Shown: positions 23,756 to 36,407 of the stretch, piece after piece
Position numbering within the stretch: the first letter of the stretch is position 1
Layout: the number at the start of each line of letters is the position of its first letter
Virus record (IMG/VR): IMGVR_UViG_3300017989_000239
Coordinates: 1 to 36,407 of that record
Source: a virus
DNA: 36,407 nt
Direction: 5' to 3' (one strand)
Made by a program: the position numbers and the translations under genes
Notes under the pieces: model-generated
What the model was told of the DNA's origin: nothing
Databases searched by the model: none
What the model saw: only the letters and a program-made list of their open reading frames with translations

Positions 23756-23954
23756 GATACTCTTTGTGTTATTAACTCTCATTTTCCCTCTTTTAGGTTC
23801 TTATGGGCCACGTTTCTATTCTAAAGAGAAGTGGCGAGAGATACGTAAAGAGGTGAAAAAAACAGTAGAAGAAGTTGCGCGCCAGGAAGCAGCCAAAAGA
23901 GCCCGATTGAGAGAGAAGCATGGAAGAAAAACCCCTAGAGATACGACTGGATAA
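23739..23954 (+). CDS. Small secreted/membrane-anchored basic protein
   Basis: A 71-residue protein from ATG 23739: basic MQKKIK, hydrophobic ILFVLLTLIFPLLGSYG, then a highly charged helix (KEKWREIRKEVKKTVEEVAR). AGAAGG lies about 10 bases upstream. It overlaps the preceding gene by 17 bases and the large terminase by 35 bases in different frames. A spanin-like outer subunit would need a cysteine after the signal; there is a serine instead. Function unknown. Confidence 0.5.
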   Translation: MQKKIKILFVLLTLIFPLLGSYGPRFYSKEKWREIRKEVKKTVEEVARQEAAKRARLREKHGRKTPRDTTG

Positions 23955-26382
23955 GTTCTCGCCTCGAGAATATCAGGCCTGTCTATTCGACGCTATATTC
24001 AACTTGAACTATAAGAAAGTAATGGCCTGCTGGCCGAGACGTTGTCTGTCTGGTGATACACATATTACCATGGCCGACGGCTCTTGGAAATTTCTTCGAG
24101 ACCTAGAAATAGGCGATGAGATTCTTTCGTGGGATGGTACTAAATTTGTTTCAGATAAAGTTAAGAATAAGTGGAAAACAGGCGTTAAGGATACATTAAA
24201 GCTTCAGTCTTATGGGTATCTCCCAGTTATAACGTCCGCGGACCATAAATTTGCAAATTTAACTCAAGGAAGGGATCACGTTCGCTGGGATAGTGTCGAC
24301 ACAATTTCGAAAAGAAAGAGCCGGCAAGTATTAAACTATGCTGGTATCGGATATGGAACTCTGCATAATCCGGATCTTGCTGAATTTATAGGGTATATGA
24401 TAACAGATGGCTACTGCAGCGGTTATCAACAGCCGAAATTTACTAATACAAACAAGTTTATGCTAGCGCGTGTTGCTTACCTTGCTGAGAAGCTTTTCGG
24501 AATGGTACCCATATATCGTAAAAAGGGAAATGGATATGATCTTGGTTTATCCAATGGCACTAAGGGCGGTGGAACATATAAAAACAATGTGAAAGAATTC
24601 TTTCGAAAGTATGGACAGGATGTTTCGAAGGAGAAAAGAAGAATCTTACCCCTAGTGTGGCAATTCGATGAGGAGTCACTAGGGCGCTTTTTTTCTGCTG
24701 TCATAGCGTGTGATGGATCTATATACGCACACAAATCCGGATTTGTTGGTGATAGGTGTCGCGATGTACCCCCAGCAAACGAGATATCCATTAATTGCGG
24801 TGTTAGCTATCTTATGGGTTGGGATATGTATTGGCTTCTGCGCAAAATAGGCATAATTCCACAGGTACCTAAGAATGAAAGAGGGTCCAATTGGAAGATA
24901 CGCGTAACTAAAGGATATGGGGTCAGGCAACTCCTTTCATATGGCCCAATATTCGGAAAAGAAGATAAGCAAGGGGAAGTTTATGCAAGAATTCCCTATA
25001 AACCTTATAAGCCGCGCGTATGGAATAGTTGTTATCGATGTGCTACTAAGGTAATGCGCTCCGGAGCTGATCAGCTTTATGATATAGAGACTGAAAAGCA
25101 TCATAATTTTATAGCTAATGGGTATGTTGTGCACAATTCTGGGAAGGATTTGTGCGCTTGGAACATATGTATACAGCAATTACTACGTAAAACATGTGTG
25201 ATATTCTACGTATTTCCTACCTTTGCTTTAGGAAGAAGAATTCTTTGGGATGCTCTTACCATCGATGGTGATAGAATCCTAGATTATCTACCAAAAGAGT
25301 TAGTCGAGTCTAAAAATGAGCAGCTCATGCGTATTAAACTTAAGAATGGCTCTCTCTTTCAGATAGTTGGGTCTGATAAGTTTGATAAATCTATGATCGG
25401 TACCAACGCACACGGTATGGTGTTCTCAGAGTTTGCAGTTAGTGAACCGCAATCTTATTCTTTATCTTTACCGATTCTATCTGTATCAGATGGGTGGGCA
25501 TTGATTGTTTCTACTCCCAGAGGCAAGAACTTTATGTATGACATGTACAACGTTGCACTTGAGAATCCAGATATTTGGTATGTTTCAAAATTAACCGTTG
25601 ATGACACCAAGCATGTTTCTCTAGAGAAGCTTGAGTTAGATCGTAGAACCGGTGAAATGTCGGAAGATCTTCAGCTTCAAGAGTATTGGACGTCGTTTGA
25701 TATGGGTGTCGAAGGATCATATTACGTGAAATATATCGATCAACTTAAGCTTAATGGGCAGATTGGCCACGTGCCATGGGATCCAACACTCAAGGTACAT
25801 ACCGCATGGGATATAGGTTGTCGCGACATGACTGCTATTATCTTCTTTCAGATATCTCGGGATAACTCCATACGTATCATCGATTGCTATGAGAAGAATA
25901 AAGAAGGTTTGGAGCATTATATTAAGATTCTTAGGTCTAAAGATTATACGTACGGCAAGCATATTGGCCCTCATGATATTCGAAATATGGAGTTTAGCAC
26001 CGGAATTACTCGTTGGGAAAAAGCCAGGAGGCTTGGAGTAACCTTTACAGTTGCTGATAAACTTGGGATCATGGATGGAATTGAGGCCGTAAGATCAAAG
26101 CTACCCTTAATGTATCTAGATCAGGTACGATGTGCGCCGCTTATCAAAGCGCTTGAGAACTATAGACAAGAGTATGATAGCAAGAGGAAAGTATACAAAG
26201 AGAAGCCACTTCACGATGTATTTTCGAACTTTGCCGATGCAATGAGATATTTGGCTGTGTCGCTAGGTAAAGTTAAAGATGGGTCATCGCCAGAGGAACT
26301 AGAAAAACGTTACAGAGAAGCGATGTATGGAGATCAGAGTAATATGCCTGCTGTCTTTAGGGATGATTTGCCAAGATATTAA
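23920..26382 (+). CDS. terL: Terminase large subunit interrupted by an intein
   Basis: An 820-residue precursor. The ATPase P-loop reads CWPRR (37-41), then 365 intein residues, then SGKDLCAWN (407 on). After splicing, the protein would be 455 residues with an intact PRRSGKD. Other motifs: Walker B-like GMVFSEFAVSEP near 499, coupling motif LIVSTPRGKN near 527, nuclease motif AWDIGCRDMTAI near 628 with a catalytic aspartate, and HDVFSNFADAMRYL near 765. It is the ATP-driven packaging motor and headful nuclease. The start overlaps the previous gene. It acts with terS and the portal. Confidence 0.9.
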   Translation: MEEKPLEIRLDKFSPREYQACLFDAIFNLNYKKVMACWPRRCLSGDTHITMADGSWKFLRDLEIGDEILSWDGTKFVSDKVKNKWKTGVKDTLKLQSYGYLPVITSADHKFANLTQGRDHVRWDSVDTISKRKSRQVLNYAGIGYGTLHNPDLAEFIGYMITDGYCSGYQQPKFTNTNKFMLARVAYLAEKLFGMVPIYRKKGNGYDLGLSNGTKGGGTYKNNVKEFFRKYGQDVSKEKRRILPLVWQFDEESLGRFFSAVIACDGSIYAHKSGFVGDRCRDVPPANEISINCGVSYLMGWDMYWLLRKIGIIPQVPKNERGSNWKIRVTKGYGVRQLLSYGPIFGKEDKQGEVYARIPYKPYKPRVWNSCYRCATKVMRSGADQLYDIETEKHHNFIANGYVVHNSGKDLCAWNICIQQLLRKTCVIFYVFPTFALGRRILWDALTIDGDRILDYLPKELVESKNEQLMRIKLKNGSLFQIVGSDKFDKSMIGTNAHGMVFSEFAVSEPQSYSLSLPILSVSDGWALIVSTPRGKNFMYDMYNVALENPDIWYVSKLTVDDTKHVSLEKLELDRRTGEMSEDLQLQEYWTSFDMGVEGSYYVKYIDQLKLNGQIGHVPWDPTLKVHTAWDIGCRDMTAIIFFQISRDNSIRIIDCYEKNKEGLEHYIKILRSKDYTYGKHIGPHDIRNMEFSTGITRWEKARRLGVTFTVADKLGIMDGIEAVRSKLPLMYLDQVRCAPLIKALENYRQEYDSKRKVYKEKPLHDVFSNFADAMRYLAVSLGKVKDGSSPEELEKRYREAMYGDQSNMPAVFRDDLPRY
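24043..25137 (+). mobile_element. Intein with LAGLIDADG homing endonuclease in TerL
   Basis: 365 residues. The first is Cys (CLSGDTHITMADG, block A), block B is TSADHKF, and the end is YDIETEKHHNFIANGYVVHN with the His-Asn pair and Ser as the +1 extein residue, so all splicing residues are present. Two dodecapeptide motifs (LAEFIGYMITDG at about residue 154 and LGRFFSAVIACDGS at about 254 of the precursor) mark a two-motif LAGLIDADG nuclease. The insertion lies inside the Walker A P-loop between Arg and Ser. It would home into intein-free terL alleles. Confidence 0.92.
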
Positions 26383-31678: not shown

Positions 31679-31693
31679 GTGACGTTTTGTCAC
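31679..31693. terminator. Short bidirectional hairpin
   Basis: GTGAC-GTTTT-GTCAC lies between convergent genes and overlaps the stop codon of ruvC. The arm sequence is shared with the stronger hairpin at 3530-3552. Confidence 0.45.
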
Positions 31694-32172
31694 GACCTTA
31701 AAGCTTTTTTTTTATTCCACAGGCCACAGAGGGCTACTGCTAATGCGTCAGTTGTATCATCCCTTTGTGGTTTTTTAATATTAAATAGCCTTGTTACTAC
31801 AGTAGAAACCTGGTCTTTCGATGCTTTTCCGTAACCGGTTACTTGTTGCTTGATTTCCATTGGAGCGTACTCACGCAGCTCAAATTGTAGTTGGTCAGCG
31901 ATAAGATAAAGAACACCTCGAACATATCCCAGCTTGAGAAACGTTGAGGCATTCTTATATAAAAAAGGAGTCTCTAGGGCGAGTACTGTTATTTTATACT
32001 CTAGAGCTTTCTCATGTATAAATTTATATATGCATCCGATTTTTTCAGTGAGTTTCTTTTTTTTGTGTATATCTAAACAGCCTGATTCAATTAATCGTGT
32101 TTTTTGCTTCGTGTGATCAAGTACGCCATATCCAAGATATCTTGTGCCTGGATCTACTCCCATTATGATCAT
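31690..32172 (-). CDS. ruvC: RuvC-like Holliday junction resolvase
   Basis: A 160-residue protein with all RuvC signatures: GVDPGTRYLGYGVLD (Asp7), VLALETPF (Glu67), ASTFLKLGYVRGVLYL, and a C-terminal RDDTTDALAVAL (Asp139 and Asp142). It retains the acidic catalytic residues and so is probably active, cutting branched DNA before packaging or during recombination. It starts 3 bases after the preceding stop on the minus strand. This contrasts with the RusA-like protein at 22623, whose acidic residues are absent. Confidence 0.9.
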   Translation of the reverse strand: MIIMGVDPGTRYLGYGVLDHTKQKTRLIESGCLDIHKKKKLTEKIGCIYKFIHEKALEYKITVLALETPFLYKNASTFLKLGYVRGVLYLIADQLQFELREYAPMEIKQQVTGYGKASKDQVSTVVTRLFNIKKPQRDDTTDALAVALCGLWNKKKALRS

Positions 32173-34463: not shown

Positions 34464-34922
34464 ATGTATAAAATTGGCGACCGTATAGGTCATATGACTG
34501 TAATTGGAAGTGGCCCAGATCAAGTGCATATTGTTAAGACCGGACCTCGTCGTGGAAGAGTTATAAGGAAGCCCCGTGTGCGCGTTAAGTGTATATGCGG
34601 CGCTGAAAGAGTTAAAGTGGTCAGTGAACTACGTAGAGGAAAAGGAACAAAATGTATAACATGCAGCAATAATATTACCAAACTAGTTGCAGCTCCAAAA
34701 AGGATTGTATACAAATTAAAAAATGTATATGATTCATGGAAAGTTTTATATAAATACAAACTTATAAAATCCGGAAAAAAGACTAATAAGAGAATATTGA
34801 CGTGCTTATGTGAATGTAGATGTGGGAAAAGAAAGTACGTACGATGTTCTCAATTGAGATCAGGTAGATCTAAAAGGTGTCGCGCATGTCATTTAAAGTA
34901 TCTTCACAGCCTTAAGGCTTGA
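34464..34922 (+). CDS. Tandem zinc-ribbon protein between scaffold and capsid
   Basis: A 152-residue basic protein. The start MYKIGDRIGHMTVIGSG resembles N-termini of HNH/AP2-type homing endonucleases. Two matching ribbons follow: CxC at 43-45 with CxxC at 64-67, and CxC at 118-120 with CxxC at 139-142, each with 21 residues between first cysteines. No HNH, GIY-YIG or LAGLIDADG nuclease motif is visible. It may be a DNA-binding remnant or regulator of a homing system. The ribosome site is weak. It is followed by the triple hairpin array. Confidence 0.6.
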   Translation: MYKIGDRIGHMTVIGSGPDQVHIVKTGPRRGRVIRKPRVRVKCICGAERVKVVSELRRGKGTKCITCSNNITKLVAAPKRIVYKLKNVYDSWKVLYKYKLIKSGKKTNKRILTCLCECRCGKRKYVRCSQLRSGRSKRCRACHLKYLHSLKA

Positions 34923-34948
34923 ACTAAAAAATTGGATTATGTACTATA

Positions 34949-34986
34949 GGGTTGGCTGGACGGGATTCGCCAACCCACTTTTTTAT
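34949..34986 (+). terminator. Rho-independent terminator-like hairpin before the capsid gene
   Basis: GGGTTGGC (34949-34956) and GCCAACCC (34969-34976) form a perfect 8-bp stem with a 12-base loop, followed by ACTTTTTTAT. If active, it would reduce transcription into the capsid gene unless a promoter or antitermination acts. It is also the first unit of the hairpin array. Confidence 0.65.
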
Positions 34987-35039
34987 ATCTGAGCTGGACC
35001 GGGACATCGCTCATCCCACGGGCAGGAAGGGAATCGCCC
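34949..35039 (+). ncRNA. Tandem array of three hairpins with a conserved loop
   Basis: Three successive stems enclose related loops. Unit 1 is GGGTTGGC/GCCAACCC with loop TGGACGGGATTC. Unit 2 is TGAGC/GCTCA (34990-34994, 35009-35013) with loop TGGACCGGGACATC. Unit 3 is GGGC/GCCC (35020-35023, 35036-35039) with loop AGGAAGGGAATC. The loops share GGA, GGGA and a final TC while the stems differ but still pair, which suggests selection on structure. It lies 43 bases before the capsid start and so is probably in its leader. Function is inferred as regulatory or as a protein-binding RNA. Confidence 0.55.
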
Positions 35040-35081
35040 ACCCACATGTTGTAATATTATAAGTTTAGGTTAGGAGAAACT

Positions 35082-35369
35082 ATGCCTATAACCACTACAG
35101 CTGTATTGCCTGCTCCAGTCCAGCAGTCTTTCAGCTATAAACTTCTCTCCGTACCAGTTCCATCAATGATCCATAAAATACCTGCAATGAAAAAAAGAAT
35201 GCCTTCTAAAGGTGGAACAACGCTACGTATGAGAAGATATAATCCTCTTAATACAGCAATGGTACCGCTTGGAAATACAGGAGTTACACCTCCATCGCAG
35301 CAACTTACCGCGGTCGACATAGATGCAAGAATTGATTTTTACGGTAATTTAGGTGCCGTAATAGTTTAA
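35082..35369 (+). CDS. Major capsid protein, exon 1 (N4-gp56-type)
   Basis: The open frame gives 95 codons, but the last few are intron. The true protein part (at least 88 residues) contains PVQQSFSYKLLSVPVPSMIH, TTLRMRRYNPLNTAMVPLGN and GVTPPSQQLTAVDIDARIDF, typical of the N-terminus of N4-gp56-type capsid proteins. TAGGAGAAACT precedes ATG. The exon probably ends at GGT (35345), where a 7-bp P1 helix with a terminal U-G pair can form. A later end near 35355 is possible. It continues in exon 2 at about 36185. Confidence 0.8.
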   Translation: MPITTTAVLPAPVQQSFSYKLLSVPVPSMIHKIPAMKKRMPSKGGTTLRMRRYNPLNTAMVPLGNTGVTPPSQQLTAVDIDARIDFYGNLGAVIV

Positions 35370-36184
35370 CTGATTTGACCTACGTTCAGTTGAACGAGCA
35401 GGTTGTAAAATTGATCTTTGAAATTTCTTGATTTTGGCAGTGTTAGCCTGCTTTAAATCGAGCTATATGCTGGAAACCCCTAAAGCCTTTCTGTACGTAC
35501 AGAGCATTCGATGATATAATAAATAAAACAATATTAATCTGTCGTGAAAATCAGAAGGATGAAACAATGGGCAATCAGCAGGAAAGACTTGAAATTGATT
35601 TAGCATGGCTTACAGGTCTCATAGAAGGTGAAGGTTGGATAAGTCTTATTTGCTATAAATCTAATCAAAAAAACGGTAAGTATACTAGAGCATTGAAAGG
35701 CAATATTGGAGTTGTTAATTGTGATATTGTTATTATGGATAAGATAAAATCTATTTTAGATAATTTAGATATAAAATATCGATACAATTTTAGAAAAGCA
35801 GCAATTGGAAGTGATGGCATATCTAGGAAAGCAAAAGTAGAAATATCAGTTGAAAATCAAGCATCGTTAAGAAAACTAGCAAATACGATATATCCATATA
35901 TGATAGGCGAAAAGAGACATCGCGTTACAAAGATATTGGAATTTCTAGATATAAGGGCTTCGAAGCCACGTTCTGGAAAAGCATCAAAGTATGGAAAAGA
36001 AGAATTCATCCTTTATAGAGAAATGTATGGCTTTAAAGGTAAATCAAGGTCAAGAATCCTCAACGACTATACGCTCGACAAAATTATAAAAGATTTTGAA
36101 GATATAGTCTGATCTCATATGAGAGTATGAGAGGGAGGAATAACAAGACTCCCCGCCAAATAGAAAATATTTGGTCATAAAAAG
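35346..36184 (+). ncRNA. Group I intron in the capsid gene
   Basis: Exonic TTACGGT pairs with GCCGTAA (P1, U-G at the splice point). A P2-like stem follows (ACCT...AGGT enclosing GTTCA/TGAAC). The core element TGCTGGAAACCCCTAAAGCC is at about 35468-35487, with an R-like CAGAGC near 35500. The S-like GAAGATATAGTCTG (36098-36111) gives P7 pairing CAGA/TCTG. Terminal hairpins are CTCATA/TATGAG, GGGAG/CTCCC and CCAAATA/TATTTGG. G36184 is the best 3' terminal guanosine structurally, but the exact splice sites are not resolved. The endonuclease frame occupies the P8 region. Confidence 0.8.
35567..36112 (+). CDS. LAGLIDADG homing endonuclease (intron-encoded)
   Basis: A 181-residue protein with one clear motif (LAWLTGLIEGEGWISL, residues 13-28), so it probably acts as a dimer or has a degenerate second motif. 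KGNIGVVNCDIVIMDKIKSI and NQASLRKLANTIYPYMIG are typical of the family core. The stop codon region overlaps the intron S element, a common arrangement in which the open frame shares sequence with the ribozyme core. It cuts intronless capsid alleles to spread the intron. AGAAGGA lies 8 bases before ATG. Confidence 0.88.
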   Translation: MGNQQERLEIDLAWLTGLIEGEGWISLICYKSNQKNGKYTRALKGNIGVVNCDIVIMDKIKSILDNLDIKYRYNFRKAAIGSDGISRKAKVEISVENQASLRKLANTIYPYMIGEKRHRVTKILEFLDIRASKPRSGKASKYGKEEFILYREMYGFKGKSRSRILNDYTLDKIIKDFEDIV

Positions 36185-36407
36185 TAACAGAAAATGTACA
36201 TTACAAAATCAAGATCCTGTTTTGAACGAAGCTGCAGCAAGATTAGGTGTGTCGCTAAGACAAACAGAAGACCAACTTACAAGAGATATGTTGGCAGCAA
36301 CTGCTGGTTTCATAAACTGTGTTGGTGGTGTTAATGGTGATAACCCAACAGAAGTCACCAGAACAGATATTGATGAAGTTGTAAGAACTCTTCTTTCTAA
36401 CGATGCA
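36185..36407 (+). CDS. Major capsid protein, exon 2 (3' partial)
   Basis: From 36198 the frame reads TLQNQDPVLNEAAARLGVSL, then RQTEDQLTRDMLAATAGFIN and CVGGVNGDNPTEVTRTDIDE, a continuation of an N4-gp56-type capsid protein, and runs off the end of the window. The first 13 bases are ambiguous: the downstream frame reads NRKC, while a different frame reads VTENV, which is closer to what I expect before TLQNQ. The start given here is the structural 3' splice estimate, not proven. Confidence 0.75.

Follow-up and report, generated by a model that had tools for sequence, protein, structure and literature searches.

What are the three tandem repeats that stand before the major capsid gene of this phage, and what could they do for the message that carries them? 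The DNA analyzed here (the window) is a 36,407-bp phage record from IMG/VR, in which genes for the terminase, the portal and the major head protein were found. The repeats are flanked by an HNH-like open reading frame (ORF; 34464-34922) on one side and by the start codon of the capsid gene, at 35082, on the other. The features of the leader and of the capsid gene are collected in Table 1, where the limit of exon 1 was inferred from relatives aligning over residues 1-88.

Table 1. Features of the capsid leader and capsid gene in the window.
Feature	Position	Strand	Components or basis
sigma70-like promoter	34919-34947	+	-35 TTGAAC 34919-34924, 17-nt spacer, -10 TACTAT 34942-34947; 4/6 and 4/6; weak match alone, placed as in relatives
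Pseudoknot unit 1	34952-34976	+	S1 TTGGC(T)G 34952-34958 with CGCCAA 34968-34973; S2 GGG 34962-34964 with CCC 34974-34976
Pseudoknot unit 2	34990-35017	+	S1 TGAGC(T)G 34990-34996 with CGCTCA 35008-35013; S2 GGGA 35001-35004 with TCCC 35014-35017
Pseudoknot unit 3	35020-35043	+	S1 GGGC(A)G 35020-35025 with CGCCC 35035-35039; S2 GGG 35029-35031 with CCC 35041-35043
Shine-Dalgarno AGGAG of capsid gene	35072-35076	+	sequence
Major capsid gene exon 1, ~88 codons	35082-35345	+	phrog_1357, E = 2.1e-7
Group I intron after ~codon 88 of capsid gene	35346-36198		RF00028, 40.1 bits, E = 2e-8, under gathering score

Capsid residues 1-85 (35082-35336 in the window, and the corresponding part of the relatives) are 82-91% identical, and the leaders and other proteins are far more diverged. 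A LAGLIDADG endonuclease ORF (35567-36112) lies inside the group I intron of the capsid gene. An apparent intron or insert is also seen near codon 12 of the same gene in L124 (14610-15360) and in contig L162 (1-421); that of L124 contains a homing-endonuclease-like ORF, and codon 12 would be a second insertion site in one capsid gene. Elsewhere in the window, the ORF of the terminase large subunit (23920-26382) contains an intein-like insert with Intein_splicing and LAGLIDADG_3 matches, and a gene for a RuvC-family Holliday junction resolvase (31690-32172, minus strand; PF02075, E = 1.6e-37) sits beside the structural genes.

Architecture of the repeat unit

The first-pass annotation described the repeats as three hairpins at 34949-35039 with conserved loops. 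Three tandem units are present beyond chance: stem-1-type hairpins number 143 over both strands of the whole window, only four of which also have three loop/3′-flank pairs in the fixed register, and three of these four are the units before the capsid gene. In hairpin form, unit 1 reads GGGTTGGC-TGGACGGGATTC-GCCAACCC (34949-34976), unit 2 GAGC-TGGACCGGGACATC-GCTC and unit 3 GGGC-AGGAAGGGAATC-GCCC. The likeness of the loops comes from GGG(A), which forms one strand of a second stem (S2) by pairing with (T)CCC directly 3′ of the hairpin, whose own stem is S1. The units are thus pseudoknots rather than simple hairpins, and unit 3 reaches 35043, past 35039, since its CCC lies at 35041-35043. All three have one bulged base in the 5′ strand of S1 (S1a), and their S2 core pairs share one register, with S2 comprising only 3-4 bp in the window.

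The 190 nt upstream of the capsid gene were compared in 80 relatives, where the likeness of the loops does not extend. Other letters replace GGG(A) there, and their complement is found directly 3′ of the hairpin, as in GACG TATC GAGC ATT CGTC AA GCTC and AGCC CAAAC TGAAGA TT GGCT T TCTTCA. Because the loop letters vary together with a complementary 3′ flank, the unit is read as S1a - L1 - S2a - L2 - S1b - (A) - S2b, an H-type pseudoknot. Its approximate consensus is RRC(U)G-YA-n-RRG-NU-CGYY-A-CYY, with a length of ~24 nt and no inner hairpin. The same comparison gives no support to the suggestion that the loops are sites for CsrA, as the loop GGA is usually replaced by GTA (TGTACGGGA) among the nearest relatives and is missing from most others.

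To guard against circularity, units were picked by S1 alone and S2 was then tested in fixed columns. Among 294 distinct units, the three core pairs of S2 are Watson-Crick in 71, 82 and 76% in one register, compared with 43, 40 and 36% after shuffling. Mutual information in that register is 0.40-0.65 bit, against a largest shuffled value of 0.07, and other registers are near background. The converse also holds: in units picked by the S2 core together with the inner pairs of S1, the two S1 pairs that come next are kept in 75-76%. The covariation score for 46 thinned, ungapped units is 0.617, compared with 0.228 (s.d. 0.021) for shuffled units and no more than 0.173 after sliding of the register by one to three columns, and the observation of the first-pass annotation that the stems change and remain paired is thereby borne out. 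Since sliding the register keeps relatedness, shared ancestry does not explain this covariation.

The pairing is also concentrated where it was first seen. S1-only matches carry the S2 core as well in 209 of 325 cases in leaders (64%) but in only 44 of 2437 elsewhere (1.8%), and matches with both S1 and the S2 core occur at 8.5 per kb in leaders versus 0.044 per kb over the remainder of those contigs, in agreement with the earlier proposal that the capsid gene has a structured RNA leader. As the detectors had been built from these sequences, the fixed-register, slid and control-DNA comparisons served to counter over-fitting. A permissive pseudoknot scan gave too much noise, and the fixed-register tests were used instead. 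Nested folding of the leaders was not significant in the window (z = -0.20) and gave a mean z of -0.56 over 25 relatives, because nested-fold programs cannot draw pseudoknots. Taken from these sequence comparisons, the units of the window and of its relatives almost certainly form compact H-type pseudoknots in tandem.

Distribution among relatives

The first-pass annotation had made recurrence upstream of the capsid gene in relatives its own test, and the array does recur: at least one scored unit is present in 118 of the 123 distinct leaders of this capsid gene in IMG/VR. Five leaders lack a scored unit; by eye, three of them have recognizable weaker units and two are from distant gut phages without the array. 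Leaders usually hold two to four units and up to eight (~120 distinct IMG/VR leaders). The array belongs to one capsid lineage, with an N terminus >80% identical, for which IMG/VR holds at least 588 encoding stretches. On these contigs it is confined to the capsid leader, and further two-unit clusters, which are without the family consensus, look like chance occurrences. The array is absent from gut phages with a ~30% identical capsid and also from KPP25 and Rhizobium phage RHph_Y1_10, two distant relatives by portal whose capsids are unrelated. The capsid was not found in any cultured phage, and the sole match among genome contigs, on a Methylococcaceae MAG contig (L162), has no units upstream of it.

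The longest array seen is that of L161 (4588-4781), where seven of the eight units in one leader are almost identical 24-nt repeats, suggesting growth of the array by duplication, apparently recent. To judge from the leaders compared, the design is kept in more than 100 related uncultured phages despite its changing letters, and for this reason the array probably sets the amount of coat protein made.

Promoter, spacing and the Shine-Dalgarno hairpin

In 44 of the 89 leaders with two or more units, compared with 4.2% of control windows, a -10 box matching in at least five of six positions has its start 11-14 nt ahead of unit 1; in 23 of those 44 it is accompanied by a -35 box. From the position of the -10 box and usual promoter geometry, we infer that the mRNA begins at the first pseudoknot; transcription should thus start at the first bases of unit 1, at ~34954 in the window. 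A T7-like phage promoter (ACTATAGGG) was considered and rejected, as GTACTATAGGG-type sites are no commoner in the window than expected by chance.

The predicted start bears on the possibility that the leader controls transcription, either by put-like antitermination or as an attenuator in which unit 1 and a U-run terminate. In the window, the strands GGGTTGGC/GCCAACCC of unit 1 (34949-34976) can form a rival 8-bp stem that competes for the CCC of S2, so that the extended stem and S2 are mutually exclusive; it is followed by ACTTTTTT, and the leader starts beside the promoter. However, if transcription starts at ~34954, as relatives suggest, GGG 34949-34951 probably lies upstream of the start and would not be transcribed, so that the 8-bp stem would be incomplete. 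The likeness of unit 1 to a terminator, remarked on in the first-pass annotation, is local to the window and its closest relative; U-runs follow the first units in 9 of 89 leaders, or 10% against a background of 8%, and a terminator scan left the site unflagged. We consider control of transcription highly improbable.

Within the array, gaps between units are mostly 1-2 nt. The units fall into positional classes, the first being mostly AGCG-type and the last mostly GACG-type, often with AAGC as the 5′ strand of S2. Unpaired loop letters are conserved, with YA at the loop start and U at the loop end, and the 5′ strands of both stems are purine-rich.

The last unit differs from the others in its relation to the Shine-Dalgarno (SD) region. 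Its S2b together with the next 8 nt pairs with the SD region of its own leader over at least 6 bp in 45 of 84 leaders (permuted mean 13.6, largest 23), whereas the flanks of earlier units do so in 2%. An SD-anchored hairpin of at least six pairs is found in 47 leaders, and in 36 its 5′ arm starts in or next to the S2b of a pseudoknot. The arm overlaps S2b by 3-4 nt in 32 of these 36, and the 3′ arm, which ends with the AAG in AAGG, covers part of the SD sequence. The overlap makes formation of S2 in the last unit an alternative to closing the foot of the SD hairpin. No SD hairpin was seen in the window or its closest relative, whose SD region is TTAGGAG.

These features also help to weigh two further explanations. 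Similar-sized pseudoknot repeats occur in tandem in type III antitoxins (PMC5086642), and the array, as part of an abundant transcript, might be a decoy of that kind; the near-identical repeats of L161 would suit it. Yet the units of one leader usually diverge widely, whereas antitoxin repeats are near identical. Neither the positional classes nor the overlap with the SD hairpin would be expected of a decoy, and no Rfam family matched, leaving this explanation very improbable. The second is that the element acts as DNA, either as a protein site or as an extruded structure. At paired positions G-U is not commoner than A-C, so pairing alone is no proof of RNA rather than DNA. However, the pairing is interlocked, the loops are asymmetric and matches are biased to one strand (10.7 versus 3.5 per kb on the reverse strand). 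Moreover, the array begins at the expected transcription start and the flank of the last unit pairs with the SD region, both of which fit RNA. A DNA element is therefore scarcely to be expected.

Proposed function

We favor the array as a cis-acting leader of the major capsid mRNA that both caps its 5′ end and controls its translation, a role that its sequence and placement make reasonably likely. The mechanism that we propose, with unit 1 as the cap and the last unit keeping the SD open, is more tentative, and our confidence in it falls a little short of even. Transcription is predicted to start at unit 1, so that the first pseudoknot would cap the 5′ end of the mRNA and shield it against 5′-end-dependent decay; 5′-terminal pairing slows the decay of known bacterial mRNAs (PMC3997798). 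The last unit would hold the strand that otherwise closes the SD hairpin. With the pseudoknots folded, the capsid mRNA would be long-lived and well translated. Because the window has no SD hairpin, the switch half of this mechanism does not apply there in that form.

Two to four units exceed the need of a simple 5′ cap, a hint that something binds them. A partner protein is plausible and could read the conserved loop letters and the purine-rich strands; if one from phage or host bound the array, it could add feedback control to the cap and switch, as gp32 does at the T4 leader pseudoknot. The alternative is that binding is the main function, and that capsid, scaffold or another phage protein binds cooperatively to repress (or activate) capsid translation. 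The position in the leader, the several units per leader, the conserved unpaired YA and U letters and the purine-only 5′ strands in both stems would all be in keeping with such an autoregulatory operator, and gp32 on the gene 32 leader pseudoknot of T4 is a precedent (PMC3014915). Nevertheless, the number of units varies, those within one leader differ in sequence, and the leader could work without any protein; we regard an operator as possible but rather unlikely. A specific form of it is somewhat less probable, namely an operator of several pseudoknots that would sense free capsid (or scaffold) protein cooperatively and, by way of its last unit, expose or occlude the capsid SD. If true, such an RNA device would adjust the synthesis of coat protein to head assembly.

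Comparison with known systems

The leader appears to be a structured RNA undescribed in the sources searched. Rfam at permissive thresholds gave no convincing match for the leader in the window or in 13 relatives, and no description of this capsid leader was found in the open literature, of which coverage was partial. Nested-fold methods miss this RNA because its second stem is a pseudoknot. It would represent a well-supported structured RNA at the start of one of the most-demanded messages in a large group of uncultured phages.

The STAXI RNA (RF01728; Weinberg et al. 2010, PMC2864571) consists of two or three tandem copies of a pseudoknot. The STAXI model has no match in the window or the 13 relatives, with an E. 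coli positive control scoring 134 bits. The likeness is limited to tandem pseudoknot repeats, and the folds differ: STAXI has ~50-nt repeats with UUCG-capped inner hairpins, whereas the units here are ~24 nt and have none. In addition, STAXI is found near ssb, topoisomerase, antirestriction and integrase genes of Enterobacteriales, and the present array is found in capsid leaders. The type III antitoxins ToxI, TenpI and CptI and the phage pseudo-ToxI likewise consist of short pseudoknots in tandem, but their near-identical repeats are followed by a terminator and the gene for an endoribonuclease toxin, whereas here the units diverge and the capsid gene comes next. The ompA and papA 5′-terminal stem-loops, which stabilize mRNA (PMC3997798), are placed at the first bases of the transcript or directly beside them, as is predicted here; they are simple hairpins of host genes, in contrast to pseudoknot arrays.

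In both position and possible function, the nearest known system is the T4 gene 32 operator, an autogenous one at which the product of the gene binds and represses translation. Like the units described here, the operator of T4, T2 and RB69 is an H-type pseudoknot that lies ahead of the ribosome binding site in the leader of a phage gene. It differs in being a single unit that precedes an SSB gene and is followed by a U/A-rich single-stranded tract. The capsid leader instead has two to four units, a predicted start at +1 and, in many relatives, an SD hairpin that overlaps the last unit.
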